From Zygnema cylindricum (taxonomy: Eukaryota; Streptophyta; Zygnematophyceae; Zygnematales; Zygnemataceae), in NCBI GenBank assembly GCA_037447655.1, contig JBBHKE010002555.1, positions 1-64,000 of the forward strand: DNA of 64,000 nt. The letters run 5' to 3'. The notes below the pieces were generated by a model. That model saw only the letters and a program-made list of their open reading frames with translations. It was not told the origin of the DNA and did no database searches. This document shows positions 1,001-48,460 of this stretch, piece after piece. Each line of letters begins with the position of its first letter. Positions within the stretch are counted from its first letter, which is position 1. The position numbers and the translations under genes were made by a program.

Positions 1001-1631
1001 CTGGCCGCCTGTCTTTCTCTTGCTAATTCCTTTGCGGTACTCTTTACTCCTATAACGGTTTCCGTGGCATCTCTTTCTCTCTCTTCCCCCTCTCGTACCT
1101 CTTCCCGTTTTATTTTTGGCCGACGTCGTTGATTACGTCGAGGTAGTGGAAGGTAGCGACGACAATACTGCAAGACACTACGGTGTCGCCTATATACTTT
1201 GCTGCTGCCGTTTATGGATATTAGTAAGACATGATGAAAAAAATGAAAAAGAAGAGGCAGCTGCACAAAAAGCTGAGAGAATACGGAAGTAAACCTGAAA
1301 AATGACATGTCTGGTTTTCACTTAATAGATGCGTTCAAAATATACTTACATAGTGTATTGTCCGTGACGGTATGAAGTCGTCGCTTCTCCAATCATTATG
1401 AAAATTCCAAAAATGTGACGACAAAAACGTATTTAGGATGTCACGCGGCTCACTGTTTAGTAAACTCCAATACAGGCAACGTCATTCAAAATATACTTAC
1501 AGAGTGAGTGGTCTACGGCACAAGAAAGTTGTCGCGTCCCTAATTTTTTTGATAATCCAACAGTGTGAGGACGAAACTGAATTAAAAAGTCACGCGGTTC
1601 AATGATTGCGCGATTCCAACAAATAGACAAT
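1001..1631. repeat. Unassigned spacer with a diverged ~150-bp tandem duplication
   Basis: No gene is supported. Two diverged direct copies begin at about 1335 and 1485, both starting tcaaaatatacttac and both containing a gtcacgcggttca-like block near their ends, so the period is about 150 bp. A 120-codon ORF on the minus strand (946-1308) crosses the LTR edge, is low-complexity and basic, and is not supported. This may be the sequence that flanked the insertion site of Gypsy G1. Confidence 0.4.
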
Positions 1632-1874
1632 TGTCGAGTGTGCTTGAGAAATATAAGATAAGGCCCACAGCCCACCTTAGTTGATGTGGGGGTCATGCAA
1701 ATGCCCCCCCCCCCGTGCGCGTGCTTACCATGATAGTGACCATGCCCATTTGTGCCACCAATTCCCCCAAGAAAATGCATGAAAAACAAATGAGGAAATG
1801 GAGCCCGCATGGGAATTGAAAGCGTGGGGAGGTTAAAAGATACCCTATCCCCCCCCTCTAAGGCTGATATCCAA
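1632..1874 (-). repeat. Gypsy G1 terminal segment B2 (outer copy)
   Basis: This is a second copy of the segment at 3034-3274, in the same orientation. On the minus strand it begins TTGGATATCAGCC and ends ACTCGACA. It lies outside the A2 segment, so the 3' end of G1 reads B1-A2-B2. Gypsy G2 shows the same arrangement at 48178-49925. The outer edge on the plus strand is at tgtc (1632-1635). Divergence between the two B copies is easily seen by eye, so the element is old. Confidence 0.7.
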
Positions 1875-3031
1875 ATTAGTGTTGGTCCGCTGGAAGTCTA
1901 AGAAAGAATCCCTCAAAACCCACTGTTCTGGTCCAAAAGATTCTCGTAGTTAACCCTCGCTGAAAAGCAACCGAAGCTCAAAAAGGACTACTAAAGAAAG
2001 AACAAAGGCACTTCCACGTAGAATAACGGAAAAATAAAAGAATAATAAGCTGTTCCAGAATTAACATTATCACCTTGCCCTAGACAAATATACATAAAGA
2101 TATGATTCAAAATAATAGCAAGCGAGCTTAACATACCCCCAAAAAAATGTTGACAACAAGAGGAAACGAAATCTCTATAGAAGACACCAAAATAGGTAAT
2201 ATCCTCCTTAAATCCTCGGTTTCCGCAACCCGGAACCGGCAAGACCCATGTCGGTATCAAACAACCACAAGTCATTAATCGCCCAACAAGGAAAGATATT
2301 GCCAACTACCATACCAAACTACGACTTCCACAAAAGAAAAGCGCAAACCAAGATGGCAGTAGGGTCACAATTACATTACAAACAAAGGTTCTCCAAAAGA
2401 AGATTTGTTGGAATTTCTAAGATTTTTATCAAGAGACAGTACTAAAAAACAACCTGTCTCCTATGGCCCCAAGTGCCTTATACATCACAGTTTGTCCTAC
2501 TGTAGGGGCCAGAGTCAAAGCAATTCCAGAAACCAATCAACGACCAGCAATTGTTATCGTACTAACATAAGACAAAACAGTATGTACTACACTTAGGGCA
2601 AAAAGTTAGGCGACTCGCTCCGGCTAGATTTGCAGTAAATGGTCCTCTAATGGTAAACTAATAGGTAACAAAGTCATGAATTGACGTGAAACCGCCTAAC
2701 TTTGACCCAACGTAATAAATACTCTGCCTGTCTGTTGGGCCTAAACTAACATCCTACTGACGGCTAACAGCCGAATCTATGTACCCCTCGGCTAGAGCTA
2801 CATAGAACAGATGCCATGTTATGGAGCCGCCACCGTTGCAACGGACTAACTCCGCCGTTCGACCTTCGTTTGAGGTGAACTAAATTGCGTTGTTCTCTTG
2901 GGTGAGAATATAAGGATCTGATCCTGCTGGTTGTCCTCCCCTTCCCCATACGCTGGGGTCCGTACAGGGTGAAATGAGGCCCCAAAAATCTTGGGAGTAG
3001 AAATGTGCATAGAATGCACATGAGCTTGACA
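1875..3031 (-). repeat. Gypsy G1 terminal segment A2
   Basis: On the minus strand it starts TGTCAAGCTCATG and runs about 1.16 kb to the junction with B2. It is homologous to G2 A1 (17666-17866 plus 23028-24011) and G2 A2 (48461-49637). Shared landmarks include a GGGGGTACAT block, the cacttagggcaaaaagtt block near 2590, and the reverse complement of the ggcaaggtgat block near 2075. It is strongly diverged from the G2 copies. Scattered ORFs within it are chance. Confidence 0.7.
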
Positions 3032-3033
3032 TT

Positions 3034-3274
3034 TGTCGAGTGTGCCTGCGAAATATAAGGTAAGGCCCACAACCCACCTTAGTTGATGTGGGGGTTCTAT
3101 AAATGCCCCCCCCCCGTGCGCGTGCTTCTCATGATAGTGACCATGCCCATTTCTGGCACCAAATCCCATGGGAAATGCATGCAAAATAAAAGAGAAAATG
3201 GAGCCCGCATGGGAGCTGCAAGCGTGGGGAGGTGAAAAGATACCTTATCCCCCCCCTCTACGGCTGATATCCCA
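3034..3274 (-). repeat. Gypsy G1 terminal segment B1
   Basis: It follows a polypurine tract (minus-strand AAGGGGGGGGAAAT, at 3275-3291), starts TGGGATATCAGCC and ends ACTCGACA, two bases before the A2 start TGTCAAGC. It corresponds to G2 48178-48458. The polypurine tract marks this as the start of the 3' LTR in the ordinary retroviral sense (LTR = B+A). The extra B after A is therefore unexpected. Confidence 0.7.
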
Positions 3275-3314
3275 ATTTCCCCCCCCCTTAGTCCACCCTG
3301 AGTAAGATATAATT

Positions 3315-4545
3315 TTACCCCCCCAATTCACAGTTCTCACAAAACCAAGGGCCTTGGGGTTGGGTGTGTGGTTCCCAAGAGGAGGGGATACATGTTTCAT
3401 GCCAACATTGGGTGCATCTATCACAAACCAAGATAGGGTCCGGTGAGGATGACGGCGTGCAGTCCGAGGAGCAGGAAGGAGGGTCGGTAAAGGAAGTTAG
3501 ATACAAGGTGGGTTCGTCTTCCAAGCCTCGAAGGTGGCAAGGTGCTACATTGATGTGATTCTCCTTGATTCTCCGGCCATCCTTTCCTTCCAAGGTAAGA
3601 ACTCCTTTATTGGAAACATCCACCACTTTTAAAATCACTCGCCCGGCAGAATTATCTAGCGTTTTCTTTTTCTGGTGCATCCGATGCACAAAGTCTCCGG
3701 GCATGAATCGACGTTGTCGAAGTACATAGTTCCCGCTCCTACGTTGAGAATACCATAACTCATCCGAATGCTGCGCTGCCTGTAAATTCCCCATGGTGAG
3801 AGGCATTTCCTGGTAGAACACTTTGGCTCTGTCAACGATCAATTTCTCCACTGTCTCCTGATTATCAATCAACGGGAGGACCACTGCTTAGGCCGAAGTA
3901 GCGCCGGGGAGGATGGGATATAGTCCAAATAAATAGAAGTTAGGGCTATAGGAATGGAGAGAGGCTTGCCGGCTGAACATGTATCCCATGGCGATCCACG
4001 ACACCCGCCTTTCCCACTCCCCCAAATCTTCTTTAACTGTATATTTTGGTAGTGACCGCTTCACTATTTGTTTTTACCTTTCGGCTAAACCATCAGTTTA
4101 GGGGTGGTCGCGAATGGTAAGTTGATGGTCGATGAGACATTTCTCTAAAAGGGTTGAGAATTCTCTGGCAAAATTCAGATCCTTGATATGTCAGAACCTC
4201 TGAAGGCGCTCCAAATTGTGACAACACACTTTGAAGCAAGGCATCAGGAATAGCTTTAGACTCCTTCCGGGGAAAAACCACCAATTCTATCCATTTTGAA
4301 AAATGTTCGATCATAACCAGAACGAAACGATTCCCTCGTCTGCTGGTTAGAAGAGGCCCGAAAAGATTCAAAGACCATCGATAAAACATCCCCCGGATGG
4401 GAAGAGAATAAAGATCGATTCCGCCCTTTTTGTTAAAAGTTGCTTTAACTCGATACCAGGAAGAGCAAGTTTTCACAATTCGGTTGACTTGAGTTCGCAA
4501 CCCGAGCCACCAATAAGATCCTGTGACCATAGAAGTGGTCCTTTT
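3315..4545 (-). pseudogene. Gypsy G1 integrase core and C-terminal PHD finger (3' part of pol)
   Basis: The integrase would insert element cDNA into the host genome. The core (4093-4545) has HFSKWIELV and a TYQGSEF motif where active relatives have TDQGSEF, so the second catalytic Asp is lost. The first Asp position reads Asn in SLNLFGPL (G2 has SFDLLGP). A frame break separates the core from the C-terminal block (3315-3884, 189 aa), which carries an SH3-like region (FMPGDFVHRM, RRIKENH) and then a PHD-type zinc finger: LVCDRCTQCWHETCIP ... WFCENC. Chromoviruses usually carry a chromodomain here. The domain continues across the B1 insertion at 13614. G2 has the degraded homologue at 47470-48164. 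Clearly a dead copy. Confidence 0.8.
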
Positions 4546-5859
4546 TGTTGTTCTTTGGTCTAAAATAGACCGCAGAAGCAACCCAAACTATCATGCAAAA
4601 AGCTAAGCAAAAATAGGTCGACGAACAATCATATGAAATGCATCCTCCATATGCGTACACAGACGCAACAAACAACATTTAGGGTTTCATGGAATAATCA
4701 ACATAAATAAACCCTATGACAACATCTAAGGTTTGATGGAATAATCGACATAAACAAACCCTAGGACAAATGCATAAACAATGCATATCAAACATATATA
4801 AAACAACATAAATAAATAATAACAAAAGAGTGCAATCTCACATAAACATAGATAAACAAAAGTATATCAATAAACATATTACTCAAATGCATGACCTAAT
4901 CGGCAACCCTAAAAGTTTACATCTTCGGTCCCCACTTTACTAACCAGCATTGATGATTAATTCCTAACAAAGCTCAAACCTATATACACACTTGTGAGTT
5001 GTCAATGAATCACTAAGTGTCAAAATAACCAACATACATTACGTAACTGTCAATAAGTCCTATTTAACCATAATAGACCATCACTAAGAATAAATTAATC
5101 TTAAGCGTACACTTGAAAGTCAAACAATCGTAAGCGTACACTTGTCTACAAGTACAACATCGTACACACACAAATTAAACTATCGAAAAATTGATCACTT
5201 AAATAAAAATGTCATAATCAATACTAAATTAATAATACACATAAGACAAAATAATGTTACTCCAAATATTTATACCGACGCGTCCGCAAAATACGTGTCA
5301 TAAGCGACAACTCGCTTAGTCACTCGTAGATAAATCCACGTAGTGAACCGACATCGTATATGTACGGTCCACCTAATTAACACGTCATCAAACAATACGA
5401 TCCCTTGGAAATATCGGCGGACGTCATCCGCCTTCCACGTGTACCACGAATCACTTGTCAAACAATCCGGAACGTCCAAAAATAAATATCGTGTGATTGA
5501 CGCGATTTCGCGTCACCACTACATAAAAATCTCGGCGACCTATATCCGCCGTCCGTCGCTCTTAATCGGCACCATTGATGTCGCGCCGCGTGGTCATAAA
5601 AAATCCACTTGTCGAAATAATATCGTACAGCCGAAATCATTTTCGTACCGCAAGCGCGTCCCTTGTAATAAATTTGCTTGTCGCATTTTGTTTCGTACGC
5701 CATGCGTACATTTTCACACTTCGAAAATTTCAAATCGGATCGCTTCGCGATCCGCCGTCCATTTACATTGCGCATTCTGCGCCACACAATTAGTCCTTCA
5801 CGTACATTTAATTTTCTTCGTACATTTACTCCCCCAATCCGCAAATCTATTTGAACCTC
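4546..5859 (-). repeat. B1 left LTR (first part)
   Basis: It starts TGTTGTTCTTTGG directly after the 5-bp duplication ctttt (4541-4545); the other copy of ctttt is at 13614-13618. It is homologous to the 1244-bp LTR of B2. It is interrupted by Copia A at 5860 and resumes at 12314-12402, ending TTTTCAAAAACAACA. It contains AAACCCTA telo-box-like motifs near 4682-4765 and many GTAC/GTACG motifs. No gene is present; ORFs around 5343-5870 are LTR sequence. Confidence 0.85.
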
Positions 5860-6910
5860 TGAAACTCTGAGACCTCCATAAGTCCTCAGAGTGGACAGCT
5901 TCCAAGAAGCCTCTAGGATAATCCTGACCCCTTTGTGTTTAAGCAAAAATAACTGCCACCCTGGCAGACAAAAACTCTGACCAACTTCACCCCTGTGAAG
6001 ACAAGACTCCCCTGAGTCGATAGCAAAAAGAATCTCTGAATTTGCTCCCCTGAGCAGTAAGTTATGGAGGGTCAAAGTTGACCTTTTGTACAGAAGCTCT
6101 CTGGGAGAGGGGGTCCTATCTTCTAATTTTTCTAAGTCCTATCTCTCTCACAGACTCTATCTACTGATGTACGGAACCAATCAGAATTGAGTTCCGTACG
6201 CAAAAGTACAGCTGCCGGTGTACTTTATGTACGGACATTGTACGACATGGCCAAAATGTCGACACATGTCAAATCCGGATTCGGTGCCATAATCTCCGGA
6301 GTTTCCACAATCCAACGGAATTTTGCCACGCGTCATCCGATGTGGCGATGGCCACAAACCGCCGAAATCTTCCTCCGCGATCTCGGCGCTAATCCCGGCC
6401 GTCCGATTAAATTCGTCTTTAATCGTGGCCGTAATAAATACATGCGCGGTATTTGTTTCATTTACGAAACAAATGCGCGGTACTGATTTATGTCCGTACC
6501 GTAAGTCGTACATTACATATTACTGGATCTATGTATCCCGTAATTAATTCTAGTTAAATGGTTTATCGCAATAATACATATCTAAATAATTATCAAACTA
6601 TATGCTACGTAGTAATACCTCTAGATGAAACGGCTAAGGCTGCCGGCTATTTCATGTCTGCCGGCCGGCAGGTACATGGTTCAAATCCTGCCGCCGGCAC
6701 ATACATTTTAATCAAATATATATAAACCCTAATATAAAATTCCCGTAAACCTCAGGATAGCCAAGGTAGCCATGGCTCTAGCTTCCTCTCCAATTTCTCA
6801 GTGACTGCGACAAGTTTGAGAGTTGGAGAGAGAAGTTAGAGATAGACTGCCTCGACTTCTATATTTCTTTTCAGACCTAGAAAATACTAATAAAACCATT
6901 AGTTTCTACA
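5860..6910 (-). repeat. Copia A 3' LTR (left)
   Basis: 1051 bp, TGAAACTCTGAG...GTTTCTACA on the plus strand. It is the same length as the right LTR, and I see about two differences by eye (6636 and 6641 versus their partners), so roughly 99.8 percent identity. It holds the palindrome at 6451-6474, a tRNA-like minihelix with B-box GGTTCAAATCC (6678-6688, acceptor-like arms 6641-6647 and 6693-6699), and the conserved hairpin at about 6777-6839. Confidence 0.93.
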
Positions 6911-6927
6911 CTCCCCTTATTTTCTAG
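6911..6927 (-). other. Copia A polypurine tract
   Basis: On the minus strand the sequence just before the 3' LTR reads CTAGAAAATAAGGGGAG, immediately before TGTAGAAAC. It is the expected primer site for plus-strand DNA synthesis. The stop codon of the polyprotein overlaps its start. The same AGAAAATAAGGGGGAG-type tract precedes the LTRs at 21835 and 53661. Confidence 0.8.
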
Positions 6928-9900
6928 TCAATCTTTAATTTCAGACCACACTTCTCCCTGCAAAAAATTAGTTTAGGGGAAGGCACAGGTTTGGTCATCA
7001 TATCCGCTACCATCTCACTATCTGGTCTGTACTCTAAACTGATTATTTTGTTTTCTACTTTCTCTCTAACAAAGCTGAGTCTGATGTCCATGTGTTTGGC
7101 TTTAAAATGGTGTTTAGGATTGGCAGAAATAGCGATTGCTGCCTGATTATCACAAAATATTTTCTGCACACCACTCTTAAGGTGACCAAGCTCACCGAGC
7201 AAAGACTTGACCCACATCAATTCTTTTACAGCAGAGCAAGAGGCCATATACTCAGCCTCCATGGTGGACTGAGCAATAACCTTTTGCTGTTTGCTACTCC
7301 AACAGCAAGCCCCATCACCCACATATAATACATATCCAGAAGTACATCTCCTCATCGGAGCATCACCATAACTGGCATCACTCCAAGTAGTGATGTCATT
7401 ATTCTCCCCACCCAAATGCAACCATAGATCTCTAGTTCCTACCAAGTATCTAAGGACTCTCTTAGCTGCCTCCCAATCCTTCTTAGTGGGAGCATTTAGA
7501 CTTCTACTCAGCACTCCTACAGCTGCAGCTAAATCCGGCCGGGTACAATTCATAAAATAGATTAGACTTCCCACTACTTGCCTGTAAGGAATAGTCTGCA
7601 TGAACTTCTGTTCTTCAGGAGATAATTCCTCGTCTAAGACTATGACTCCTTCTTCCTCACTCCCCTCACTTCCCTTCTTCAATTCCATTGGAGTTGTACA
7701 ACTATTAGCTTTATCCATTTGAAATTTTTCAAGCATGTTCCCTATTGCTTCCTTTTGAGTTAATCTTATAATTTTTCTTTTTCGGTCTCTCTCTACTTGA
7801 ATTCCCAAAATATATTTTGCTTCCCCCATATCCTTCATTTCAAATCTCCCCTTAAGATCGGTTTTCAGTTTATTAATTTTTTCCATTGATTTACTTAAAA
7901 CAAGCAAATCATCAACATAAATTGCAATAAATATAAAACCTTCCTCATCTTCGAAAACATAGATTGAGTGATCTGAGCTGATCCGAATATATCCTAGACC
8001 GGTAAGAAACTCATCAAGCTTCTTATTCCACTGTCGGGGCGCCTGTTTCAAACCATAAAGAGATTTAATCAGCCGGCATACCTTACTCTCCTCTCCTTCT
8101 TCCACAAACCCTTCGGGTTGTCGCATGAAGATCTCCTCTTCTAATTCTCCATGCAAAAAGGCTGTTTTGATGTCCATCTGGTGCACTTCCATGTCTTCCG
8201 CCGCTGCTAAACTGAGAAGTATGCGGACGGAGGGAAATCTGACCACCGGGGCAAAGGTTTCCTCGTAGTCAATTCCTTCCTTTTGTGTAAATCCCTTTGC
8301 CACTAATCTGGCCTTGTAGCGCTCGATTGTGTTATCTGGGTTCAGTTTTAGTTTGAAAACCCACTTACAACCGATTGGTTTTCGGTTAGGTGGACAGTCC
8401 ACCAGCTCCCAAGTATCGGCTGCCATGATTGAAGCCATCTCCTCATTGATGGCTGTCTTCCACCGGTTTCTTTCTGGACAAGTCATCGCCTCTCGATAAG
8501 TTTGAGGTTCATCTTGATGAGATAGTTTAGTTACCTTGTTATTAACCTGTTTTTCTTGCAGTCTTTTGCTGCTTCTCCTCCCTCCCTCAAAATCTGAGGC
8601 CGGAATAGATGGTTCTCGTGGATTCTTTCGAACAAACTCGGCTTCTCCCCTATCCCTTGATTCCGAATCAATTTCCACCACGTCTTCCGCTTCGAGTAGA
8701 GTTGTCACTGGAGTTTCCACAGCCGAGTCCTTTATGGTCTGATTTGTTCCTGCAAGAATGTCATCGTCTCTAAAACCTGGATAGTTAGGAAGCTCAAAGT
8801 CATCAGAATTTTCTGAGTCAAATCTGATTTTTACTGACTTTGTATATTTGAAGGGATCCACAGACTTTCCTTCATCCATAACTACTAGATGCTTTACTAA
8901 GATTATATCTTCTCTTTTTAGATCATAAACTCTATATCCTTTAACATCTTCATCATATCCTAATAAGTATCCCGGTTTTCCTTTAGGATCTAGCTTCCAA
9001 TTGGACCGATCAGTATCTAGACTGAATACTTGACTGCCGAAAACCTTTAAATGAGATAAATCTGGTTTCCGGCCTGTCCATCTCTCATAAGGTGTTTGAT
9101 CTTTTATAGCTGAAGTAAGAACTCTATTTTTGAGGTAATTAGCACAGTTCATTGCTTCTGCCCAAAACCTTTTTCCTATCTTCTTATCCGACAACATACT
9201 TCTAGCACTATCACTTAGTGTTCTATTTAACCTTTCAGCTACCCCATTCTGTTCCGGATTTTCTGGAACTGTCTTTTGGTGTTGAACCCCATCTTCCCTC
9301 AAAAAATCCTCAAACTGGTTAGAAGTATACTCTCCACCATTGTCACTCTTTACTCTCTTGATTGGAGTTTCATGGAGTTTTTCGCTCCATGCTTTATATT
9401 GTCTAAAACAATCCTCAGCCTCTGACTTGTTTTTCAAAAAATATACTCGGGAATACCGAGACCAATCATCAGTTATAGTCATCATAAATCTCTTCCCCCC
9501 TGGTGAGGGCACTCTAGCCGGTCCCCAAATATCTGTGTGTACTAGATCTAGAAGTTTTTCTCCCTTGTAGGTGGCTGTTTTTGGAAAGGGTAATCTGTGT
9601 GCTTTACCTTGAGCACACCCACTACAATCACTTATATCATCACTCTCACTGAACTGAATCCCTTCCACCACTCCCATCTTTTTCATCTCTCTTAACTTAT
9701 CTAGATTCACATGCCCAAGCCTCTTATGCCACATCATAATATCATGAACACCAGCATAATAAAGTTTCTTCGTTTCATTACTTAAGATCAGCCTAAACAT
9801 CCCATGGCTACCTTTCTCAGCAATGAAATAGACATCCTCCTCAAAACTAGCAGTAAAGACTCCTTCCCTAGTGCTAGTGAAAAAACCCTTATCATCTAAT

Positions 9901-11282
9901 ACTGATGTAGAGATAAGGTTTTTGTTCAGCTCCGGAATAAACAATACATCGGAGAATGTTAATATGGATGTCTTTCCTTCTACTAACACTTTCAGATCTA
10001 CCGATCCTACAAGAGTAGTGGTGACTATCCTCCCATCCCCGTACTCTATCTCTACGGTGGGAATCTTTCTTATCTTAGTGAACAGGTGTCTATCCTTACA
10101 CATGTGCATTGAGGCACCTGAATCTATAATCCAGCCTGCTTCACCTTTCAATCCACCGTAAGCACATTTCTGCCTTCGTGGAATTTCAACCTCAGTTTTC
10201 GCCTCCAACTCCTCATCCAAAAGGAGCTCATCGTCCTCGTCCTCGGATTCCGCCTCAAGTACCTGTGTGACAAGGGCCTTTTTCTTTCCTCTCGGGGTAC
10301 CACCGGTCTGCCCCTCCTTTAACCGAAGCTCGGTTAGCTTGGTGCACTCTGCCATATAGTGCCCTGGTTTCTTACAAAAATGACATAAACCTTTGGGAGC
10401 CCTTGATTCGAACTCGCCAACCTGTTTTTTCTGCTCCCTACCCCCATAGTTTTCGACTGGTTTCCGAGAATCCTTGTTCCTCCAATCGGTCGCTGTTGCC
10501 AAGGCTTGGCCACTCTTTCCTCCCCTTCGGATCTCAATCGTATTCTCTCGAACGAGAATCATCCCTACCACTGAGTTCCATATCCACCTTGAGTCCGGCA
10601 AGTCCTGCACACGGTTGACTATGTTCTCGAACTCATCAGGTAACTTCATTAGTAAACAGTTAACTTTTTCTTTTTCACTAAAAACTTTACCCGCACTCTC
10701 TAGCTCCATGAAGAGTGTAGCAAGCTCATTGCAAAAATCCAACATATTTCCCCCTTTGTATACATACTCCTTAACTTTCTGATCAGCCAACTGTTGTTGC
10801 TGAATCGTACCACTTCGGTACATCTCTATGAGAGCCATCCAAAGATCGGATGCCCTCTCTACCTGCAAATGAGGACATGCAAGTCCTTGAGTGAGATGGC
10901 GTAGGATGAAGTGCTTTGCCGCCATATTGTTGAAGTCCCAGGTTTCAGTATCATTCTCCTCGTTCCTCGGAATAGGTGACATGAATGCTAAACCAGTTGC
11001 TATTGGTGTGGTCGCCTCCTTCTCCTTTCCTTTGTCCACCACCTCTCCTTCCTTTGTTTCCTCCGTTGAAGGTGAATCCTCTTTCCTGGTGAATCTGCTT
11101 CCTTTAAACCCTGGAGGAATTCCAAGACTTGATGGACGCCCCAATCGTCCACTCACTATCCCCCAAAACCTTTTTTCGCATAGAGCTCCTATCATCATAC
11201 TTTCCCAGTATATGAAGCCAGTTCCATTAAAGATTGGTACCCTAGAGGGTGGGCCCATAACCTGAAACTCTGAGACCTCCAT
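6924..11282 (-). CDS. Copia A gag-pol polyprotein (1452 aa)
   Basis: A complete Copia polyprotein that supplies capsid, protease, integrase, reverse transcriptase and RNase H in one frame. Approximate domains: gag capsid region 15-270; CCHC zinc knuckle CHFCKKPGHYMAEC near 300-313; aspartic protease motif IIDSGAS near 383; integrase zinc region around HKRLGH and CSGCAQGK near 520-560; DDE integrase with HTDIWGP near 580, SDNGGEY near 645 and the Glu of QNGVAERLNR near 682; reverse transcriptase with IYVDDLLVL near 1120; RNase H with TWSDASYGD and TMEAEYMAS (near 1340). The start ATG (11280-11282) lies inside the 5' LTR, so the first 20 nt of coding sequence are LTR and codons 7-12 cover the primer-binding site. 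This start matches that of Copia C and E. All catalytic residues seem present. Confidence 0.95.
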   Translation of the reverse strand: MEVSEFQVMGPPSRVPIFNGTGFIYWESMMIGALCEKRFWGIVSGRLGRPSSLGIPPGFKGSRFTRKEDSPSTEETKEGEVVDKGKEKEATTPIATGLAFMSPIPRNEENDTETWDFNNMAAKHFILRHLTQGLACPHLQVERASDLWMALIEMYRSGTIQQQQLADQKVKEYVYKGGNMLDFCNELATLFMELESAGKVFSEKEKVNCLLMKLPDEFENIVNRVQDLPDSRWIWNSVVGMILVRENTIEIRRGGKSGQALATATDWRNKDSRKPVENYGGREQKKQVGEFESRAPKGLCHFCKKPGHYMAECTKLTELRLKEGQTGGTPRGKKKALVTQVLEAESEDEDDELLLDEELEAKTEVEIPRRQKCAYGGLKGEAGWIIDSGASMHMCKDRHLFTKIRKIPTVEIEYGDGRIVTTTLVGSVDLKVLVEGKTSILTFSDVLFIPELNKNLISTSVLDDKGFFTSTREGVFTASFEEDVYFIAEKGSHGMFRLILSNETKKLYYAGVHDIMMWHKRLGHVNLDKLREMKKMGVVEGIQFSESDDISDCSGCAQGKAHRLPFPKTATYKGEKLLDLVHTDIWGPARVPSPGGKRFMMTITDDWSRYSRVYFLKNKSEAEDCFRQYKAWSEKLHETPIKRVKSDNGGEYTSNQFEDFLREDGVQHQKTVPENPEQNGVAERLNRTLSDSARSMLSDKKIGKRFWAEAMNCANYLKNRVLTSAIKDQTPYERWTGRKPDLSHLKVFGSQVFSLDTDRSNWKLDPKGKPGYLLGYDEDVKGYRVYDLKREDIILVKHLVVMDEGKSVDPFKYTKSVKIRFDSENSDDFELPNYPGFRDDDILAGTNQTIKDSAVETPVTTLLEAEDVVEIDSESRDRGEAEFVRKNPREPSIPASDFEGGRRSSKRLQEKQVNNKVTKLSHQDEPQTYREAMTCPERNRWKTAINEEMASIMAADTWELVDCPPNRKPIGCKWVFKLKLNPDNTIERYKARLVAKGFTQKEGIDYEETFAPVVRFPSVRILLSLAAAEDMEVHQMDIKTAFLHGELEEEIFMRQPEGFVEEGEESKVCRLIKSLYGLKQAPRQWNKKLDEFLTGLGYIRISSDHSIYVFEDEEGFIFIAIYVDDLLVLSKSMEKINKLKTDLKGRFEMKDMGEAKYILGIQVERDRKRKIIRLTQKEAIGNMLEKFQMDKANSCTTPMELKKGSEGSEEEGVIVLDEELSPEEQKFMQTIPYRQVVGSLIYFMNCTRPDLAAAVGVLSRSLNAPTKKDWEAAKRVLRYLVGTRDLWLHLGGENNDITTWSDASYGDAPMRRCTSGYVLYVGDGACCWSSKQQKVIAQSTMEAEYMASCSAVKELMWVKSLLGELGHLKSGVQKIFCDNQAAIAISANPKHHFKAKHMDIRLSFVREKVENKIISLEYRPDSEMVADMMTKPVPSPKLIFCREKCGLKLKID
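11248..11262 (-). other. Copia A primer-binding site (half initiator tRNA-Met)
   Basis: The minus strand reads GGTTATGGGCCCACC directly after the LTR. This is the reverse complement of the anticodon-loop side of initiator tRNA-Met (GGTGGGCCCATAACC, with anticodon CAT inside). It does not match a tRNA 3' CCA end. Drosophila copia uses the same kind of site, primed by a tRNA fragment cut in the anticodon loop. The site is translated as V-M-G-P-P. Confidence 0.85.
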
Positions 11283-12313
11283 AAGTCCTCAGAGTGGACA
11301 GCTTCCAAGAAGCCTCTAGGATAATCCTGACCCCTTTGTGTTTAAGCAAAAATAACTGCCACCCTGGCAGACAAAAACTCTGACCAACTTCACCCCTGTG
11401 AAGACAAGACTCCCCTGAGTCGATAGCAAAAAGAATCTCTGAATTTGCTCCCCTGAGCAGTAAGTTATGGAGGGTCAAAGTTGACCTTTTGTACAGAAGC
11501 TCTCTGGGAGAGGGGGTCCTATCTTCTAATTTTTCTAAGTCCTATCTCTCTCACAGACTCTATCTACTGATGTACGGAACCAATCAGAATTGAGTTCCGT
11601 ACGCAAAAGTACAGCTGCCGGTGTACTTTATGTACGGACATTGTACGACATGGCCAAAATGTCGACACATGTCAAATCCGGATTCGGTGCCATAATCTCC
11701 GGAGTTTCCACAATCCAACGGAATTTTGCCACGCGTCATCCGATGTGGCGATGGCCACAAACCGCCGAAATCTTCCTCCGCGATCTCGGCGCTAATCCCG
11801 GCCGTCCGATTAAATTCGTCTTTAATCGTGGCCGTAATAAATACATGCGCGGTATTTGTTTCATTTACGAAACAAATGCGCGGTACTGATTTATGTCCGT
11901 ACCGTAAGTCGTACATTACATATTACTGGATCTATGTATCCCGTAATTAATTCTAGTTAAATGGTTTATCGCAATAATACATATCTAAATAATTATCAAA
12001 CTATATGCTACGTAGTAATACCTCTAGATGAAACTGCTAAGGCTACCGGCTATTTCATGTCTGCCGGCCGGCAGGTACATGGTTCAAATCCTGCCGCCGG
12101 CACATACATTTTAATCAAATATATATAAACCCTAATATAAAATTCCCGTAAACCTCAGGATAGCCAAGGTAGCCATGGCTCTAGCTTCCTCTCCAATTTC
12201 TCAGTGACTGCGACAAGTTTGAGAGTTGGAGAGAGAAGTTAGAGATAGACTGCCTCGACTTCTATATTTCTTTTCAGACCTAGAAAATACTAATAAAACC
12301 ATTAGTTTCTACA
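11263..12313 (-). repeat. Copia A 5' LTR (right)
   Basis: 1051 bp, near-identical partner of 5860-6910. The 20 bp at 11263-11282 encode the first residues of gag. The conserved hairpin is at about 12181-12242. ORFs at 11584-11950 duplicate those of the left LTR and are not genes. Confidence 0.93.
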
Positions 12314-12402
12314 CACACTACATCGCGTAAATGCGCACGCACGCGAACACGCGCACGCACGAAACGCTCCGTACGCACGAAACTAAGTTTTCAAAAACAA
12401 CA
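12314..12402 (-). repeat. B1 left LTR (remainder after the Copia A insertion)
   Basis: Contains cgcacgcac/gtacgcacgaaac units that correspond to the tandem 18-bp repeats of the B2 LTRs, and ends TTTTCAAAAACAACA. The polypurine complement ctcccccgaaaaattag follows, as in B2 at 27485. Confidence 0.8.
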
Positions 12403-13294
12403 CTCCCCCGAAAAATTAGTCTCGTGCATCCATGGCGCCACGTCATCAGCTGTCACCAATGTTACCAGCTGTCACACCTGCTTTCAACTGCCTTCTCCAT
12501 CTTAATCCGCCAAATTCCTCCAACAAAATTTTCCCACTTGTTCCACCAACGCTTCCGCTGCCTCCATATACCATCCAAATTTCATAATACATAATATATT
12601 TTTCATTTTTCAATTACAACAATTTTTCTTTTTCTCACCAATATCTCAATCTGAATCTACTTCCCACAATTCTATCTCAAGTCAACTAAAATTAAAACTA
12701 AAGGATTACACTAATAATATAACCCAACTCAAAAAATTCTTACTTCAACTATATCAAATATAATTTTATTCTTTTGTTTTTCATTTAATAATCTGATCTC
12801 AAAATTTCCCATTAAAAATACATAAATCAAAAATCTATTTTCCCAAAAACAATTCTACCAATGTCACATTTCCAAAAAAATTCCAACAACTCAAAATCTA
12901 CATTACAAATCCAATTGTCAACAATCATCGATCCACAAAATTTGGATCTCTCCACCACATGTCACAACTCCACCTTCCGGATCTCTCTCCCCCAGACGTT
13001 GAATCTCCACCTTCCACATCTCTCCATCAAACGAATATGTATTTTCTAAAAATAAAATATCATTTCTCATAATTAATCATTTTCATTGAGGGTAGACATT
13101 TCGGCACTCTCACTAAGTTAACCCTTGGGGCGATGCAAGACTAAACTCGGCACATACCAACACTATAATAAGGCCGATCTCATGGGTACACAGACACTAT
13201 TACTGCAATACAACCACCAAGGACAATATTAACCCGCTACAATGCGTATGATACAAACCTATCTCGACTTAACCTAACATATGATAGATGGGGT
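12403..13294. other. B1 internal region, non-coding
   Basis: About 0.9 kb, AT-rich, no ORF with recognisable homology. It is alignable with the B2 internal region (27485-28458): both share the block attgagggtagacattncggcac and the gcccttggggcgatgcaag-type block near 13118. The element therefore supplies no protein and must depend on an autonomous relative. Confidence 0.75.
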
Positions 13295-13308
13295 GTGGGC
13301 CCATAACC
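13295..13308 (-). other. B1 primer-binding site (half initiator tRNA-Met)
   Basis: Plus strand gtgggcccataacc directly abuts the LTR start at 13309. It is the same anticodon-side match as in Copia A. Confidence 0.8.
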
Positions 13309-13613
13309 TGTTGTTCTTTGGTCTAAAATAGACCGCAGAAGCAACCCAAACTATCATGCAAAAAGCTAAGCAAAAATAGGTCGTCGAACAATCATATGAA
13401 ATGCATCCTCCATATGCGTACACAGACACAACAAACAACATTTAGGGTTTCATGGAATAATCAACATAAATAAACCCTAAATGTTGTTTGTTGCGTCTGT
13501 GTACGCATATGGAGGATGCATTTCATATGATTGTTCGTCGACCTATTTTTGCTTAGCTTTTTGCATGATAGTTTGGGTTGCTTCTGCGGTCTATTTTAGA
13601 CCAAAGAACAACA
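13309..13613. repeat. B1 right LTR replaced by a 305-bp fold-back palindrome
   Basis: Arm 1 (13309-13450) is the normal LTR beginning. After a 21-nt loop (13451-13471) the sequence returns as its reverse complement (13472-13613, ending AACAACA). I count about two mismatches over 142 bp. The outer end is followed by the correct target duplication ctttt (13614-13618), so the palindromic end was either integrated as such or formed in place. An assembly or read-hairpin artefact must be considered. Confidence 0.85.
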
Positions 13614-15440
13614 CTTTTCTGCCCAAAGTGACCACATTGCTGATGTAGCCGGGACATCAAAGTTTCTTGATCCAAGGGAGGGGGGACCACTTTCTTTGTC
13701 CTAGCAGCCCATTTCCAGAGAAGAATGCCTCCGTCCCAGTCATAAGCCGCCATTCGGTTCTGCACTCGGGACAATTGAACTCCAGCGAAGTGGGAAAGAG
13801 GAGACTCGTCCTGCTCCTTTCGGTGCCTGTCCCTCCACGTCCGCCGCAAAAGTGGACAGTTCCCCCCCAGATTTAGGAAGCCAGATTAAAGCAAAAGAGG
13901 CTTGAATAAGTCCCAGACTGATCTCCAAAACTAAATCGTACAGTGCTCCGGTGGAATCCAAAGTGGAGGGATCGAGATTTCGCCTAAGTCCGTCCACATT
14001 CCTGTGAATTTCCCCTGCCAAGTGGATACTACTGAAGTCGTAATCTTGCAAGATTAGAACCCATCTGGCGAGTTTGCCGGTCAACTTAGTGTTTTCGATG
14101 CTCCATTTGAGAGGTTGATGGTACGTTATAAGAGTGAAACGGTCCCCGTATAAATATGGGGGAAAATGCTGAATTGCCCAAACAGCTGCGACGAGCTCTT
14201 GATGGTAACTGCTATAATTCCCTTCCGCTTGTTTATTGCTCCTGCTGGCGTAAGCCCGCACATACTCAGCCCCTGCATCATCTATTTGAGCTAACACGGC
14301 TCCCATCTCAAACATGATCCAATAAGTGTGAAGAAGAAAAGGTTTTTGGTGGTCCAGCATGCGAAGCACGGGATGCTATTTCAGAGCGTCCTTCAAGAAC
14401 TGAAAGGCGATCAGTTGCTCTTTGGCCCACTGCCAATCTTGATCTTTCCGCAATAACTGTTTCAGAGGTTGGGCGTTATTACTAAACTCGCGGATAAACT
14501 GCAGATAGTTGTTAGCCAGGCCCAGAAAGGTGCGAAGGGAAGAGATGTCCTCCGGTGGAAAAAGAGCGCCAAGGGCTGCCACCTTGACCATATGGGGGCC
14601 CACTATCGTGGGTGTGACCTCATGTGCGAGGTAGATTATTTTCTGCACGCCAAAAATACCTTTGTTGGGGTGAGATTTTAAACCCGCTGCCTGAAGGGCC
14701 CGGAGGACAATCTGGACATGCTCCAAGTGTTCCTCAAAGGTCTTGGAGAAGATGATCACATCATCAATATAACACCGAGCGCAATCGAGTCCCCGGAGGG
14801 CTTTGTCCATCGCCCGTTGGAATTTGGCCGATGCATTCTTCAGTCGAAAAGGCATGTTAAGCCATTCATATAGTCTAGACCCAACCCAAAATTCCGTTCT
14901 CTCACAGTGCTTTGGTTCCATTGCAATTTGTTGAAACCCGTTTTTCATGTCCAAAGTGGAGTAAAAGGTGGCCCCAACAAGAGAGTCGAAAATCTATTTA
15001 GGAGTCGGCATCGAATACCGGTCAAGAATGGCATACGATATTCCCCACACATTAGGAAATCAACTGTCTTCCCGGATGAGTCTTTCTTGGGAGGAAGAAC
15101 TGTTGGGGAAGCGAACCCATTAAGTCTGGTACTCTCTTAAACCAATCCGGCATCCACTAAGGTTTGGACTTTAGCTGAGATAAACTCCTTTTTCTTGAAG
15201 TTGAGAGGATACTTCTTCTGCCAATCACTTGTCGTCTCGTCGATCAAATCAATTCGAAAGGGGTTCCTTTGTAGATTGCGACATCTGTTTCTGACTAGGT
15301 GAACACCTGCTGGTTCTTTGCCACTAGTTTTGATAGCCGGGCCTTCTGTTGAGGGTCCAACTACTCCCCCAAGGTCGAATCCATTTTCCGTGGCTCTATT
15401 GCTGCCCATACTTTCGGTGGGCGGCCCCACCTGGTGATAT
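13614..15440 (-). pseudogene. Gypsy G1 reverse transcriptase, RNase H and integrase N-terminus
   Basis: Read on the minus strand: RT entry block with FRIDLIDET and QKKYPL (about 15180-15270); RT core (14376-14954) with MDMKNGFQQIAMEP, CARCYIDDVIIFSK (YIDD catalytic box intact) and FLGLANNYLQFI; RNase H (13740-14369), where LLHTYW replaces the usual T-D-W, so the catalytic Asp is lost; then the integrase HHCC region (13620-13850) with QQCGHFGQK. Stops and frameshifts separate the pieces. A region near 15000-15130 between RT blocks is out of frame. The next integrase part is at 4093-4545, across B1. Order and sequence match G2 (45090-46990) closely. Confidence 0.85.
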
Positions 15441-16640
15441 CAAATTCTGGTCCAACCTGTGGATCTATGTCTCCCCCTCTCGTTAGGACACTACTACTGA
15501 CAAATTCCGCTAAGCTGTCATTTTCCGAGCCTCCGCTCCCCCCCACTGGATAGAATTTGTGAAGTTTTCTCCTTTTCTCTCTCCCCCCCTTAAGTTGCAT
15601 AGTGGCCTGTATTGCTGACAATTTTGGAGCTTGAAGGTAACTAGCCCTTAACTGAGGAGATTGCGGACTTAAAAAGGAAAGAGAATGTTTTAACACCCAT
15701 GTGACCGCATTCAGATCCATGCTCTGTCCGAGTAGGCTGCACCTTTCAAAATCTAAGATACATGGTGTAGCCGTTGTTGCAGGTTGGAATCCCATTGCCT
15801 GTTCTCGTTTCTCGACCGTCCCGGTTGTCCAAGTTTGAGTTTTGTTGTCGAATATCATTCTTGCCGCCCCCTTCCGATATGCATGGCTGTTGGGGAAGGA
15901 AACCAAAGTTGGTAGGGCTTACCATGGGCCCCCTAGTTTGTTGCACCAAAAGAATGGGAGACGATCAACCTTTGTCATTGGAGTGGCCATCCGCCCTGGT
16001 CCGAGAATCTGTTGCAAAGTGATCTGGGGATCTGTTTTGTGGTAGTGTAAGAGTTGGTGGAGGATGGAAAATGGGATTAGATTAGTCCAGTAAGCTCTTA
16101 CTCGGTGAGCTCTTGATCCCATTTGTGCTGCATCAAAAATAAGTGGAGCCCCTAGAACGTGCGTAACTTAAATCTAGCTATTGGCGACAAATTTTATTTT
16201 ATCCTCTTCAGGTGGACATTCTCCAAGACATACCCCACTAGCGTATCTTGAAGCTGCTGCAGCTAGGAAATTAATTTGATCATTTGAAAGAAAGTTCGGC
16301 CTCGGCTTTTTGATGTCCCTAACCCTTCCCTGCTAGAGAGTATACCTGACATGGCCATCCTGCTACTACCACATCTACTCTTTTCAGCATGGCCAAATGT
16401 GGTGCCAAGATGTTGTCAACATTATGGGGCAGACTTCGGTGAGCTTTACAGATAGCGGACACGAAAAGTTGTTGGGGATACAGTTTGTGAAGTTGTTGTT
16501 GTCGGTGCTCAATGACAGCCCGGGCGTCGGGTGAGATTTCCACGGCTACATAAGACTCCACCTTATATCCTGCCTTTAAGACAGTTTCTAGATCCGAGCT
16601 GATTCCAGAGAAAAGTGATAGTATCTAGAGTTCGAAATCC
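15441..16640 (-). pseudogene. Gypsy G1 DNMT3-like C5 cytosine methyltransferase domain
   Basis: This region between protease and RT carries the C5 DNA methyltransferase motifs in order. Motif I is ILSLFSG (about 16600-16625), followed by GYKVESYVAVEIS (SAM binding). Motif IV is VDVVVAGWPCQVYS near 16330-16375, with the catalytic Cys. Motif VI is VLENVHL near 16215-16235. Motif VIII is GSRAHRVRAYWTNL near 16085-16125; DNMT3 enzymes have AHRARYFW here. Motifs IX-X are KREQAMGF (near 15790) and LGQSMDLNAVTWVLKH (near 15690-15735). Short uncharacterised stretches and frame breaks lie between them. The AHRxRxxW and RLLG-S-type endings point to the DNMT3/DRM class rather than DNMT1 or CMT. The same block is in G2 (43830-44860). 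Known precedent: cytosine methyltransferases captured by LTR retrotransposons in dinoflagellates and charophytes. Confidence 0.85.
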
Positions 16641-16837: not shown

Positions 16838-17665
16838 CTATATCATCTCGGAGATGTCTGGGGCGCTGGCGAGCAATTCTTTTGGCGTGTGGGTGGCATA
16901 AACAAGATTATATCCGGAAATGGGAAATTTGGTTTTTCCCCGATTCCATAAATTCAAGGATACGACCACTTGGGCCCCTTCCGGATCTTCAAGGTCCCGG
17001 ACTGTAAACTGCTCTTTCCACACACTTAAATCCATATTCAACCTTATCCAGGTGGCCATACCTAGCAGAATTTCTAATTGCTTACCTTCTACCACCAAGA
17101 AGGGAAGTCGGATTTGGACTCTCTGACCCGTGTCATCGGAGAATTCAATCACGATAGCCTTGATAATTCCGTGGATCGGCTGGTTTCCACTGCTTACTGT
17201 GCTCAAGCATATGTAATTGGGGAAAATTTCCGACCAGTGTTCCTCGGGCATTTTCTGCAAAGCCGAAGTAGTTATCAAATTGGGTAATGCTCCGGTGTCG
17301 ACCACTACATCCTGATATAATCTGTACCGGTAAATTTTGAAATTCCCTGTCAGGTTTAGGATAAGCGCCACAAATAACGTCTTATAATCCCTATCCATCA
17401 TAGGGGTCTTGGGGTCTGCGGAAAAAAATACTGACCTGGGCTGGTCTGCCTGGTCTCTTTGCCTCTTTCCTGAGTGAATTTCCTCTCCTAGTGCCTGAAT
17501 AAGGGTTTTTTCAGACAGGTTATGGGACGAGGCTAATGTTTTCACATGGGTAAGGGCGTAGGGCATGAGGTGCCTTACGAGCATAACTGCTGATTTGGAG
17601 GAAGGAGGTTGAGTTTTTGGCAAAGAAATGGGGGAACCCGGTTCCTCTAGTTTCTCTTGCTCCCG
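16838..17665 (-). pseudogene. Gypsy G1 aspartic protease region, 5'-truncated by the G2 insertion
   Basis: An uninterrupted stretch of about 276 codons containing a retropepsin-type active site VVVDTGALPNLI (near 17275-17310) and a flap/hydrophobic block VQIRLPFLVVEGKQLEILLG. It would cleave the polyprotein. Its start is lost: homology to the element ends at 17665, where G2 begins, and resumes in G1 gag at 49926. The apparent ATG at 17692 lies in G2 sequence and is not the real start. In G2 the homologous segment is 42739-43625. Confidence 0.8.
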
Positions 17666-17866
17666 TATCAAGCTCGTGTGCTTTACAGGCACCCCTTTAT
17701 TTTACCTAGGATTTCCGGCCCCATTCTCCTCTGTACGGTCATCAGAGTACGGCGAAAGGAGTGTATTAAGCCAGACGAGATTCTTCTATTTTCTAACTAA
17801 ACAAAACGCCAATTATTTTGTGCTTAACGGAGGCCGGACGACCAAGTTATTTCGTCTCACAGATTG
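17666..17866 (+). repeat. Gypsy G2 terminal segment A1, first part
   Basis: Homologous to 48461-48662: tcaagctcgtgt, ctttacaggcacc, acggtcatcagagtacgg and ggccggacgaccaagttatt are shared. It is cut at cacagattg by Copia C and resumes at 23028. Segment B, which precedes A at the 3' end, is absent here. Confidence 0.85.
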
Positions 17867-21834: not shown

Positions 21835-23022
21835 TGTTGAAATTTAAGTATTTTCTAGGCATAGAGATTGTAAAATAAAAAGCAAAAAGGGGACACTAAC
21901 AACCTACCTCTAACTCTTCACTCAAGTCCCCACACTTGTCGCAGTCACTGAAGACTTGAAGAGGAGTTAGATCCATGGCTGCCTAGGCTGTCCGAAGTGG
22001 ACAGGCAATTCTTAATAGAGATATCTAAAAGGTGTGACGGACCCAGGATTTGATCCTGGTACTTGCCGTCCGTCAAACTAGCCATTCGCTTTAAACCAAC
22101 AAGTCTAAATACAGTGCTAGAGTACGATGGGTTTGACAGATATTTATATTTTTACACGTAGACTAGTTCGTCTAACGGGAATAGATACGTAATGCATAGA
22201 TACAGTTTTGTATAGTACGGAGTACGACTTAATGTAATTTATCAAACGGATACCGCGCATTTGTTTCGAACGCGAAACAAATATCGTATGTATATTTTCA
22301 ACGGCTACAATTGTATCCGGTTTGATTGGACGGCCACGATAGGCGCCGCGATCACGGATTATGTACTTTTGGCGTTTTTCAGTAATCACCACGTCATGTG
22401 ACACGTGGCGCGACAATGTTGGAATGCGGCGACTCCGGAGATTGCGGTAACAAATCCGGCTATGACACGTGTCGACATTTTGGCCATGTTGTACAATGGC
22501 CGTACAAAAAGTACACCGGCACATGTACTTTTCTGGACGACACACTAATTTGATTGGTGCCGTACTTCAATAGATAGAGTTTTAGAGAGGGAATAGGACT
22601 TAGAAAATTTTGGGTAAGTAGCTGCCTCTCCTAGAGAGCACCTTGTATAAAATGGCAAACTTTGGCCAGCCATAATTATCAATTTACTTGACCATTTTCA
22701 GTGATTCTTTTTGCTGCGGACTCAGGGGAGTCTAGGCTACACAGGGGTGTAGTCGGTCAAAGTTTTTGTCTGCCTGGGTGGCTGCATTTATAAGGGAAAG
22801 TCAAAGTGGGTGAATGTGTCCAAATCTCATATTCTAACTTTGCATTCTGTGGTGGAACTGAGCACACAGAAAGTGTTATTTCACAAAGGTGAATCTATAT
22901 TGGGGTTCTGACTGTTAAGGGGTTGGTCATTTGGGTTTATATCAAGTTTGGAGTCGGCACTATCTAGATTAGCTTCTTTGGATCTGCCTACTCTGAGGGC
23001 CAATGGAGGTCTCATAGTTTCA
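21835..23022 (+). repeat. Copia C 3' LTR
   Basis: 1188 bp, TGTTGAAATTTAAG...CATAGTTTCA. Conserved hairpin at about 21910-21970, tRNA-like minihelix at 22035-22075 (antisense), palindrome near 22259-22281. By eye it is very similar to the 5' copy apart from the insertion. The 133-codon minus ORF in it is not a gene. Confidence 0.92.
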
Positions 23023-23027
23023 AATTG

Positions 23028-24011
23028 CAATCCCGTTACATGGGACTAGCTTCCGCTTGCCCTAGTAGGGGGTACATTGTGGATTGCCACGTAACTATCC
23101 AAATTGTCATTGAAATTATGTTGTTAGATGTTAGTTGGAATTTAGTATAGGTTCAATTGACTTCCGGTCCATTAATTACACTAGGTCAAAGTCTGGGATC
23201 CCAGCACCAGTTCAGGACCTTTTAAGTAAATTAGTGGTTGAAATTTGAACTTTCAGTTCCGAATTCAGCCGGAGACTGAAATAAAACTTTTTGCCCTGAG
23301 TGTAGTACGGCTTTATTTGTCTTATGTCATTTCGATAGAAATTGCTCTCCGCTCATTGGCTCCTTGCATTGCGTTGACCTTTTAGATCTGAAATCGGACA
23401 AATTCTGTTGTATAATGCGCTAGGGGCCATAGGAGACAAGTTGTTGTTTTCCGTATTGTCTCCTGAGAAAACACTTAGAAATTCCAGCAGAATTTCTTTT
23501 GGATAACTTTTGTTTTGTATGTGATTTTGACTTTATTGCCATCTTGGTTTGCATATGTTATTTGTGGAAGTCATAGTTTGGTTGGGTATTTGGCACTTTC
23601 TTTCCTGTTTGGGCGATTTGGGACTGGTGTCTGTTGAATACCTTGAAGGGTCTTGCTGGTTTCAGTTTGCGGAAACCGAGGAGTTAAGGAGGTTTTACCT
23701 TATTTGGTGTCTTCAGAAGTGATTTCAACTCCTCTTGTTGTCAACTTGACGTTTTGGGGGTAGGTTGAGCTCGCTTGCTATCATTCCAAATTATACCTCA
23801 TTCTCTAATTTCTAGAGCAAGGTGATATTGTTAATTCTGAAACAGCCAATTCTTTTTACTTTTAATATTTTTGTGTGGAAGCTTATTTGGTCCTCCTTGC
23901 TAGTCTTTTTGCTTCGGCGGCGGTCCTGCCGAAACATACTGCTAAAATCTTTTGGTACCAAAAGAGTGGGTTTTGAGGGTGCATTTGGCCGACTTCCAGC
24001 GGATTAGTACA
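23028..24011 (+). repeat. Gypsy G2 terminal segment A1, second part
   Basis: Continues A1 from ctgcaatcccg-type sequence to ggattagtaca. It aligns with 48663-49637 along its full length (gttacatgggactagcttccgc, gggggtacattgtgga, ttttgggggtaggttgagctc). It ends without a B segment; element leader sequence follows at 24012. Confidence 0.85.
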
Positions 24012-42738: not shown

Positions 42739-43625
42739 ATGGCAGAACGCCCGGACGATGACACTCCCCATACTCCACCTGCACCAGATTCCGGCTCCGA
42801 GAGTGACGAAAAGGAAGGAAAGGAGCAAGATCAGCAGGAACCAGATTCCCCAACGTCTTCACCAAAAGCTCAACTTCCTTGCTCAAAGCCGGCTGTTATG
42901 CTAGTCCGGCACCCACGTCAAAACTCTGGCATCATCCTACAACGTGCTCAAAGAAATCCTCATTCAAGCATTGGGAGAAGAAATACACTCTGGGAAAGAG
43001 AGAGTCGACGAAGTAACTGCGCCCACAACCGTCTTTTTGTCCACCGATCTTAAAACCCCTATGTTGGATACGGACTACAAAGCCTTATCAGTGGCTCTAA
43101 TACTGAACCGAACGGGAAATTTCAAACTCAACGGGTACGGAGGATATCAGGACGATGTGGTCGACACCGGAGCGCTTCCCAACCTCATCACCACCTTCGT
43201 TTTACGGAAAATGCCCAAGGAACTCCGTCCTGAAATCTGCCCAAGCAACATCTGCTTGAGCACGGTAAGCAGCGGTAGTCAGCCAGTCAATGGGATTATC
43301 AAGGGCATGAAAATTGAATTCTTTGATGATGCAAGCTAGCAAGTGAAAATTGAGCTCCCATTCTTAGTGGTTGAAAGAACTCAATTTAAAAATCCTGTTG
43401 GGAATTGCCACATAGACCTGGCTGAATATAGGGTTAAGCGTGTGGAAAGAACAATGTACCGTTCGGGACCCAAGAAATCCGGAAGGGACCAAAGTGGTGG
43501 TTCCTTTGGACTTATGGAACCAGGGGAAGACCAATGCCCCGGTGTCTGGCTACTTCCCGGTGTATACTACATCCTCTCCGACGAAACTTTTTGCCAACTC
43601 CAAAGATATAGCTGAGGAAATCTAG
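42739..43625 (+). pseudogene. Gypsy G2 aspartic protease region
   Basis: Acidic/Pro-rich entry, then ALGEEIHSGKE, a retropepsin motif DDVVDTGALPNLI (near 43150-43190) and the KIELPFLVVE block. Frame shifts occur at about 42940 and 43340. It aligns with the uninterrupted G1 stretch at 16838-17665 over its whole length. This copy supplies the intact gag/protease junction used to define where G2 entered G1. Confidence 0.8.
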
Positions 43626-48458: not shown

Positions 48459-48460
48459 GC

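Follow-up and report, generated by a model that had tools for sequence, protein, structure and literature searches.

Dead copies of a Ty3/Gypsy retrotransposon family with a DNMT3-type methyltransferase and a terminal PHD finger in the Zygnema cylindricum genome

The window analysed here, the whole 64,000-nucleotide stretch of contig JBBHKE010002555.1 of Zygnema cylindricum, is a nest of long terminal repeat (LTR) retrotransposons in a eukaryotic contig. Two of its elements, G1 and G2, almost certainly belong, as dead copies, to a large Ty3/Gypsy family similar to KnitGypsy-Dnmt3, with the order gag, protease, DNMT3-type C5 cytosine methyltransferase (MT), reverse transcriptase (RT), RNase H, integrase and PHD finger, and with ends arranged as A-coding-B-A-B. 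From the protease to the PHD finger, this order was read in both copies. The initial annotation had placed the methyltransferase between protease and RT in G1 (15441-16640) and in G2 (43830-44872), which agrees with homology to open relatives, and had held both copies to be dead, as their broken frames bear out. The PHD finger, the split repeats, the nesting of G2 in G1, the wider family, a second architecture and a variant with Glu before the catalytic Cys (Glu-Cys) are absent from that annotation.

The host assembly comprises 352.8 Mb in 2,689 contigs, and a scan of it with PF00145 gave 123 scored matches of 782 candidates, with open frames of up to 2,395 aa. Sixteen loci, taken from the 123 mostly for long open frames, were fetched in wider context. 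It had been proposed that longer uninterrupted copies be sought, and they were found: the MT lies inside pol at all 16 loci, some with long open frames, and protease, MT, RT and RNase H follow in this order on one strand at each. The integrase was seen at 15 loci (not at L056) and the PHD finger at 12 (not at L052, L056, L058 and L060). One open frame of 2,395 codons spans MT, RT, RNase H, integrase and PHD finger. The order of protease, RT, RNase H and rve integrase, together with a Gypsy-type RT (RVT_1), identifies a Ty3/Gypsy element. A Copia reading of the methyltransferase element was rejected, and so was a DIRS reading, as an rve DDE integrase with an H2C2 finger is present instead of a tyrosine recombinase. 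While the fusion was known from the two window copies only, a Gypsy element inserted by chance beside or over a methyltransferase gene of the host or of an endosymbiont could have explained it; the single order at 16 of 16 loci, the 2,395-codon frame and the same fusion in other organisms refute this explanation, to which we leave practically no probability. In the same genome, 27 GRAS matches were observed on 12 contigs, with none in the 14 prokaryotic control genomes, which suggests a streptophyte host and most simply one of the zygnematophytes.

The fetched loci include two main lineages. The beta lineage (L038, L044, L047, L050, L056, L059) forms, with G1 and G2, one clade of eight rows in the MT tree (100/100); four beta loci are 94-95% identical to L050 (L056 lies outside the alignment), while G1 and G2 reach 65% and 61%. 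The alpha lineage, a sister family (L045, L046, L048, L051, L054, L057), is also one clade (100/100). In one alpha copy, the A1/A2 repeats are 100% identical over 920 bp and the B1/B2 repeats 99.6%, and therefore alpha moved recently. The A-coding-B-A-B arrangement also occurs in an open copy on contig C1344, and no such repeats were found in the flanks of L050. L055 (contig C1100), with the motif GWPCQ, belongs to a further MT-Gypsy lineage, distant from alpha (dN about 0.7).

Motif order, profile and fold support the assignment of the G1/G2 domain as a DNMT3-type C5 methyltransferase. In the six-frame reading, the motifs of G1 (I, LSLFSGI; IV, GWPCQ; VI, VLENV; VIII, AHRVRAYWTNL; X, LLGQSMDLN) are spread over three frames, and those of G2 over two, with I, IV, VIII and X in order, VLEDV as motif VI and Asn in place of the first Arg of motif VIII. 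This bears out the motifs listed in the initial annotation: motifs I, IV, VIII and X, which follow in this order in each copy, and VLENV in G1. The resemblance goes beyond chance: a 385-residue query, in which the open pieces of G1 were joined and each break was filled with X, found a separate public protein, P0001, among 5.8 billion sequences with E = 5.5e-38. The Pfam DNA_methylase profile was weak on the broken G1 piece 16319-16624 (E = 6e-4, under the curated cut-off) and gave no match on 15361-15918 or 44270-44635. By profile and by the predicted fold of an open relative, the closest solved structures are DNMT3A and DNMT3B, so the profile check for a C5 methyltransferase fold, which might have told against the reading, did not refute it. 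The motif order is unrearranged (I-IV-VI-VIII-IX-X), as in the DNMT3 family. A DRM reading was rejected, because DRM enzymes place motifs VI-X before I-IV; DRM was not among the 50 rows listed in the comparisons with solved enzymes, which carries no weight against it. Motif IV reads PCQ in G1, G2 and beta or ECQ in alpha, where DNMT3 has PCN, and we therefore call the domain DNMT3-type rather than DNMT3 proper; the MT tree contained no green-lineage host DNMT3.

The ratio of nonsynonymous to synonymous substitution rates (dN/dS) between copies, a further comparison proposed at the outset, revealed purifying selection on the MT. Among distinct beta loci it was 0.125-0.39, excluding L042 (the same locus as L050) and the near-identical pair L044/L056; among alpha pairs with unsaturated dS it was 0.156, 0.160, 0.316 (two changes) and 0.317 (14 changes). 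For the RT, it was 0.065-0.195 in beta, leaving out L056, whose damaged RT gives 0.33-0.49, and 0.028 between alpha L045 and L054. When G1 is compared with G2, most of the change in the MT falls on third codon positions, as it does in the protease and RT.

In the window, G2 (17668-49925) is nested in G1, between the G1 gag and the G1 protease. The insertion divides one gag-pol linker of G1: on one side is the gag-like stretch at 51817-49995 (minus), on the other the protease side from 17663. When the G1 flanks of G2 are joined, they align through the junction to the gag-protease linker of G2 itself. No clear target-site duplication around G2 was read in the window. The features of the two copies are as follows, with domain spans set by phmmer homology to open relatives in a small search.

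16841..17386, minus: G1 retropepsin-like protease (E 1e-79 to a relative; Asp_protease_2 weak, E 0.21)
15670..16624, minus: G1 DNMT3-type C5 methyltransferase domain, broken (motifs I-X; open relatives matched by phmmer at E 3e-44)
14616..15091, minus: G1 reverse transcriptase (homology to relatives; PF00078 E 2.9e-19)
14040..14354, minus: G1 RNase H (homology to relatives; PF17917 E 1.3e-27)
4105..13684, minus: G1 integrase, in pieces after later insertions, among them an open Copia element (rve E 5.9e-6, below cut-off; H2C2 E 9.8e-6)
3318..3503, minus: G1 PHD finger, C-terminus of pol (PF00628 E 3.1e-5; aligned with 25 relatives)
3028..3277, minus: G1 repeat B1 (87.7% to B2)
1886..3027, minus: G1 repeat A2 (1886-2607 aligned; 73% to G2 A2)
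1626..1877, minus: G1 repeat B2 (Kimura two-parameter distance, K2P, B1/B2 0.126)
49995..51817, minus: G1 gag-like region, severed from the G1 protease by the G2 insertion (65% to the G2 gag region)
17668..17866, plus: G2 repeat A1, first part, at the left end of G2; another element then interrupts the repeat up to 23021 (84% to 48463-48662)
23021..24011, plus: G2 repeat A1, second part (85% to 48656-49637; K2P 0.157)
40926..42754, plus: G2 gag-like region (homology to the G1 gag region; CX2CX4HX4C knuckle by eye at ~41.97 kb)
43076..43622, plus: G2 protease (E 7e-43)
43746..44794, plus: G2 DNMT3-type methyltransferase domain, broken (E 5e-50 to open relatives; motifs)
45384..45857, plus: G2 reverse transcriptase (homology to relatives; PF00078 E 3.1e-21)
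46124..46438, plus: G2 RNase H (homology to relatives; PF17919 E 1.7e-27)
46840..47358, plus: G2 integrase (E 2e-36)
47944..48099, plus: G2 PHD finger remnant (E 2e-13; no Pfam match in frame 47472-48164)
48174..48460, plus: G2 repeat B1 (86.4% to B2)
48461..49637, plus: G2 repeat A2 (self-comparison)
49640..49925, plus: G2 repeat B2, the right end of G2 (K2P 0.153)

On the broken pieces, Pfam identified RT and RNase H clearly and gave matches for the G1 integrase and PHD finger, those for MT and protease being weak; the G2 gag-like region had no Pfam match in the two of its frames searched. Self-comparison of the window showed that the split direct repeats of G2 (A-coding-B-A-B) are 84-85% (A1/A2) and 86% (B1/B2) alike, as expected because such repeats are identical at insertion. 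G1 has B1-A2-B2 at 3277-1626 (minus), and its A1 repeat was not found within the 64 kb. The K2P distances between repeats, 0.126-0.176, indicate that both copies are old. An odd palindromic element, composed of an inverted segment by G1 and an inverted gag at 50-52 kb, had been considered and was dropped, being the left end of G2 and the severed G1 gag. The Copia element inside the G1 integrase (5859-12314, minus) is open over 1,454 codons and has 1,053-bp repeats that are 99.8% identical, so its insertion was recent. Elsewhere, a pair of 1,248-bp repeats, 99.5% identical and less than 1 kb apart (26241-29720), is likely a young non-autonomous LTR element, and a stretch of ~305 bases at 13309-13613 is self-complementary (94%), with part of it recurring at 4546-4716 and 26241-26401.

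A search with the beta MT outside the host genome gave 26 proteins. In seven, including P0026 of Klebsormidium nitens and P0031 of Closterium, the MT stands before the RT as in our elements; in 17, including P0025 of Chromochloris zofingiensis, it stands after RNase H or directly before the integrase, four of these (P0012, P0014, P0015, P0024) being placed by distance to the integrase only. Domain order did not place the remaining two, P0009 and P0030 of Haematococcus, the latter of which groups with the second architecture in the MT tree. The PHD finger was found in 16 of the 17 proteins with the second order and in none of the seven with the first. Without an outgroup, a single branch of the MT tree (99/100) separates 21 rows of the first order, 14 of which come from the host genome, from 17 of the second, a count that leaves aside 7 unplaced rows. 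The RT-RNase H tree (24 rows) splits the architectures with 100/100, and the integrase tree (27 rows) does not resolve them. G1 and G2 are in the MT tree only, where K. nitens is not their nearest row within the group. The outgroup consisted of seven C5 methyltransferases from scans, in which such loci numbered 5 and 24 in viral contigs and 7 in bacterial/archaeal genomes; a third scan of viral contigs gave no C5 methyltransferase locus. The two named streptophytes stand on one side of the split and the two named chlorophytes on the other, these four being the only named organisms. On the simplest reading, the two architectures would reflect either one old association with a single change of position or the capture of similar enzymes on two occasions.

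Some of these proteins have peculiarities of their own. P0025 contains a G-patch domain, a further nucleic-acid-binding module, between methyltransferase and integrase (residues 737-780, Pfam E 5e-5). P0031 (Closterium NIES-54) fuses Copia and Gypsy-DNMT parts and is probably a gene model drawn across two elements. Motif VI begins with EH rather than EN in P0002, P0003, P0004, P0010 and P0026, that is, in 5 of 45 tree rows, all of the Klebsormidium clade.

The PHD finger at the end of the integrase resembles readers of unmodified histone H3. The alpha finger is a canonical C4HC3 finger, and among the 60 of 92 matches listed it is closest to those of PHF12, BAZ2B, WSTF, Drosophila Lid (KDM5) and PHF21A, several of which bind unmodified H3K4. 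The beta and G1 fingers have diverged (Pfam E 2.4e-4 to 4.4e-3 in beta, 3e-5 in G1). DNMT3 enzymes read unmodified H3K4 through their ADD domain. As this is the same state, the element may carry writer and reader on one polyprotein, as the host DNMT3s combine them.

DNA methylation is a standard weapon against transposons, and elements that carry the enzyme raise the question of what methylation gives the parasite. We propose that the methyltransferase would be made inside Gag-Pol and packed with the RT. From its position between protease and RT, it would be set free within the particle in which cDNA synthesis takes place. There it would methylate the element's own new double-stranded DNA, and the PHD finger, which resembles fingers that read unmethylated H3K4, would steer insertion into quiet chromatin. 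New copies would then share the marks of the surrounding heterochromatin from the moment of insertion, and the host would tolerate them. We offer this mechanism tentatively, with chances a little below even; the identity of the element and the mechanism taken together we judge evenly balanced.

Several observations weigh against the proposed mechanism. The K. nitens domain showed no activity in yeast, a result that its authors called inconclusive (PMC5890265). The CpG observed/expected ratio is 0.63 in G1, 0.69 in G2, 0.62-0.67 in three beta copies and 0.89 in alpha, while three Copia stretches of the window that lack a methyltransferase have lower values, 0.30-0.50. CpG-type transitions between repeat pairs numbered 12/39, 3/31, 12/138 (G2) and 0/29 (G1). 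These ratios and transitions give no clear sign of extra CG self-methylation. Moreover, the ligand of the PHD finger is read from sequence similarity alone, and no PHD match was found in the three non-host relatives of the same architecture that reach the integrase (P0007, P0018, P0026), some perhaps cut short. Finally, the dN/dS values place the MT under less constraint than the RT. This last point also favours the main rival explanation, in which the domain, at least in the Glu-Cys copies, no longer methylates DNA and has been retained for binding DNA or RNA, in cDNA handling, as an RT cofactor or in the preintegration complex.

The Glu-Cys copies bear most directly on that rival. Of 389 motif matches across the genome, 200 have Pro and 164 have Glu before the catalytic Cys, and Glu stands there in 20 of the 45 tree rows. 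Alpha L045, the youngest of the copies seen, carries Glu and also has the highest CpG ratio computed, given above for alpha. All this speaks for a non-catalytic role, above all for the Glu-Cys copies, but we nevertheless hold such a role to be unlikely. The Glu rows retain the other catalytic residues, with motif VI kept as EN- and motif X tending to Arg rather than Gln. The pairing of Glu with Arg is found in only two phylogenetically independent pairs, both concordant, which are too few for significance, and DNMT3A itself combines Pro in motif IV with Arg in motif X. An approximately unbiased test against a single origin of Glu, run after the tree was viewed, gave p 0.028. Glu-Cys with Arg in motif X might represent a working, previously undescribed C5 methyltransferase variant in nearly half of the methyltransferases of a writer-reader family that spans the green lineage and is old enough for one architecture to occur in streptophytes and the other in chlorophytes; we regard this as rather doubtful. 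Motif IV also departs from the usual sequence in P0027 (WCCQ) and P0010 (WPYQ), beside the catalytic Cys or at that residue itself.

The enzyme may also act on the host rather than on its own DNA, by methylating competing elements or host silencing genes or by shifting the methylome. The many copies, with the 389 motif matches, would suit such an effect, which was proposed for Symbiodinium (PMC5890265), but K. nitens, which has a related element, has a methylome not very unlike that of land plants (PMC5890265). We consider this distinctly unlikely.

If writer and reader act together, as in the mechanism of self-methylation and guided insertion, the family would be a natural system for testing both in what is probably a close relative of land plants among the algae. 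With the Glu-Cys form, the limits of change in the catalytic core of C5 methyltransferases could be probed, and the presence of the family in both green lineages would place the capture much earlier or show that it happened more than once.

Chromoviruses are Gypsy elements with a chromodomain at the C-terminus of the integrase, which is thought to steer insertion. As in chromoviruses, a histone-reading module ends the integrase of our elements, but a PHD finger replaces the chromodomain and a methyltransferase is present in the same polyprotein. The fungal DNMT-like proteins Masc1/RID likewise have a conserved non-canonical catalytic motif in a C5 methyltransferase family; however, motif VI is altered there (EQT/EET; PMC6709928), whereas in the Glu rows here Pro of motif IV is replaced by Glu and EN- of motif VI is kept. 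SymbioDIRS-Dnmt3 and SymbioLINE-Dnmt of dinoflagellates are also retrotransposons with a captured C5 methyltransferase, with split repeats in the DIRS case (PMC5890265), but they are tyrosine-recombinase or LINE elements, unlike the DDE (rve) integrase elements described here.

The kind of element itself has been known since 2018. As the initial annotation stated, captured C5 methyltransferases in LTR retrotransposons had already been reported: de Mendoza et al. described KnitGypsy-Dnmt3 of Klebsormidium nitens, with split direct repeats and a Gypsy domain set (PMC5890265), and methyltransferase-bearing retrotransposons were cited again in 2025, as LTR Copia and DIRS (PMC12344493). The second architecture, chlorophyte hosts, a PHD finger in such elements and Glu-Cys were not found in the open-licence PMC literature, outside which most subscription journals lie, and the word PHD is absent from the main text of PMC5890265. 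Our elements agree with KnitGypsy-Dnmt3 in the unrearranged Dnmt3-class domain in the Gypsy pol frame, the DIRS-style repeats and a Ka/Ks below 1 (PMC5890265), and P0026 (KFL_009030040) of K. nitens falls in the same architecture group in the RT-RNase H and MT trees. They differ in the host genome, which is probably that of another streptophyte, in the PHD finger on the integrase, none being seen in P0026, which is labelled partial, and in motif VI, which is ENV here but EHV in P0026 and four near relatives. A further difference from KnitGypsy-Dnmt3 is that a single genome here contains at least three lineages of the methyltransferase, including one with Glu-Cys.
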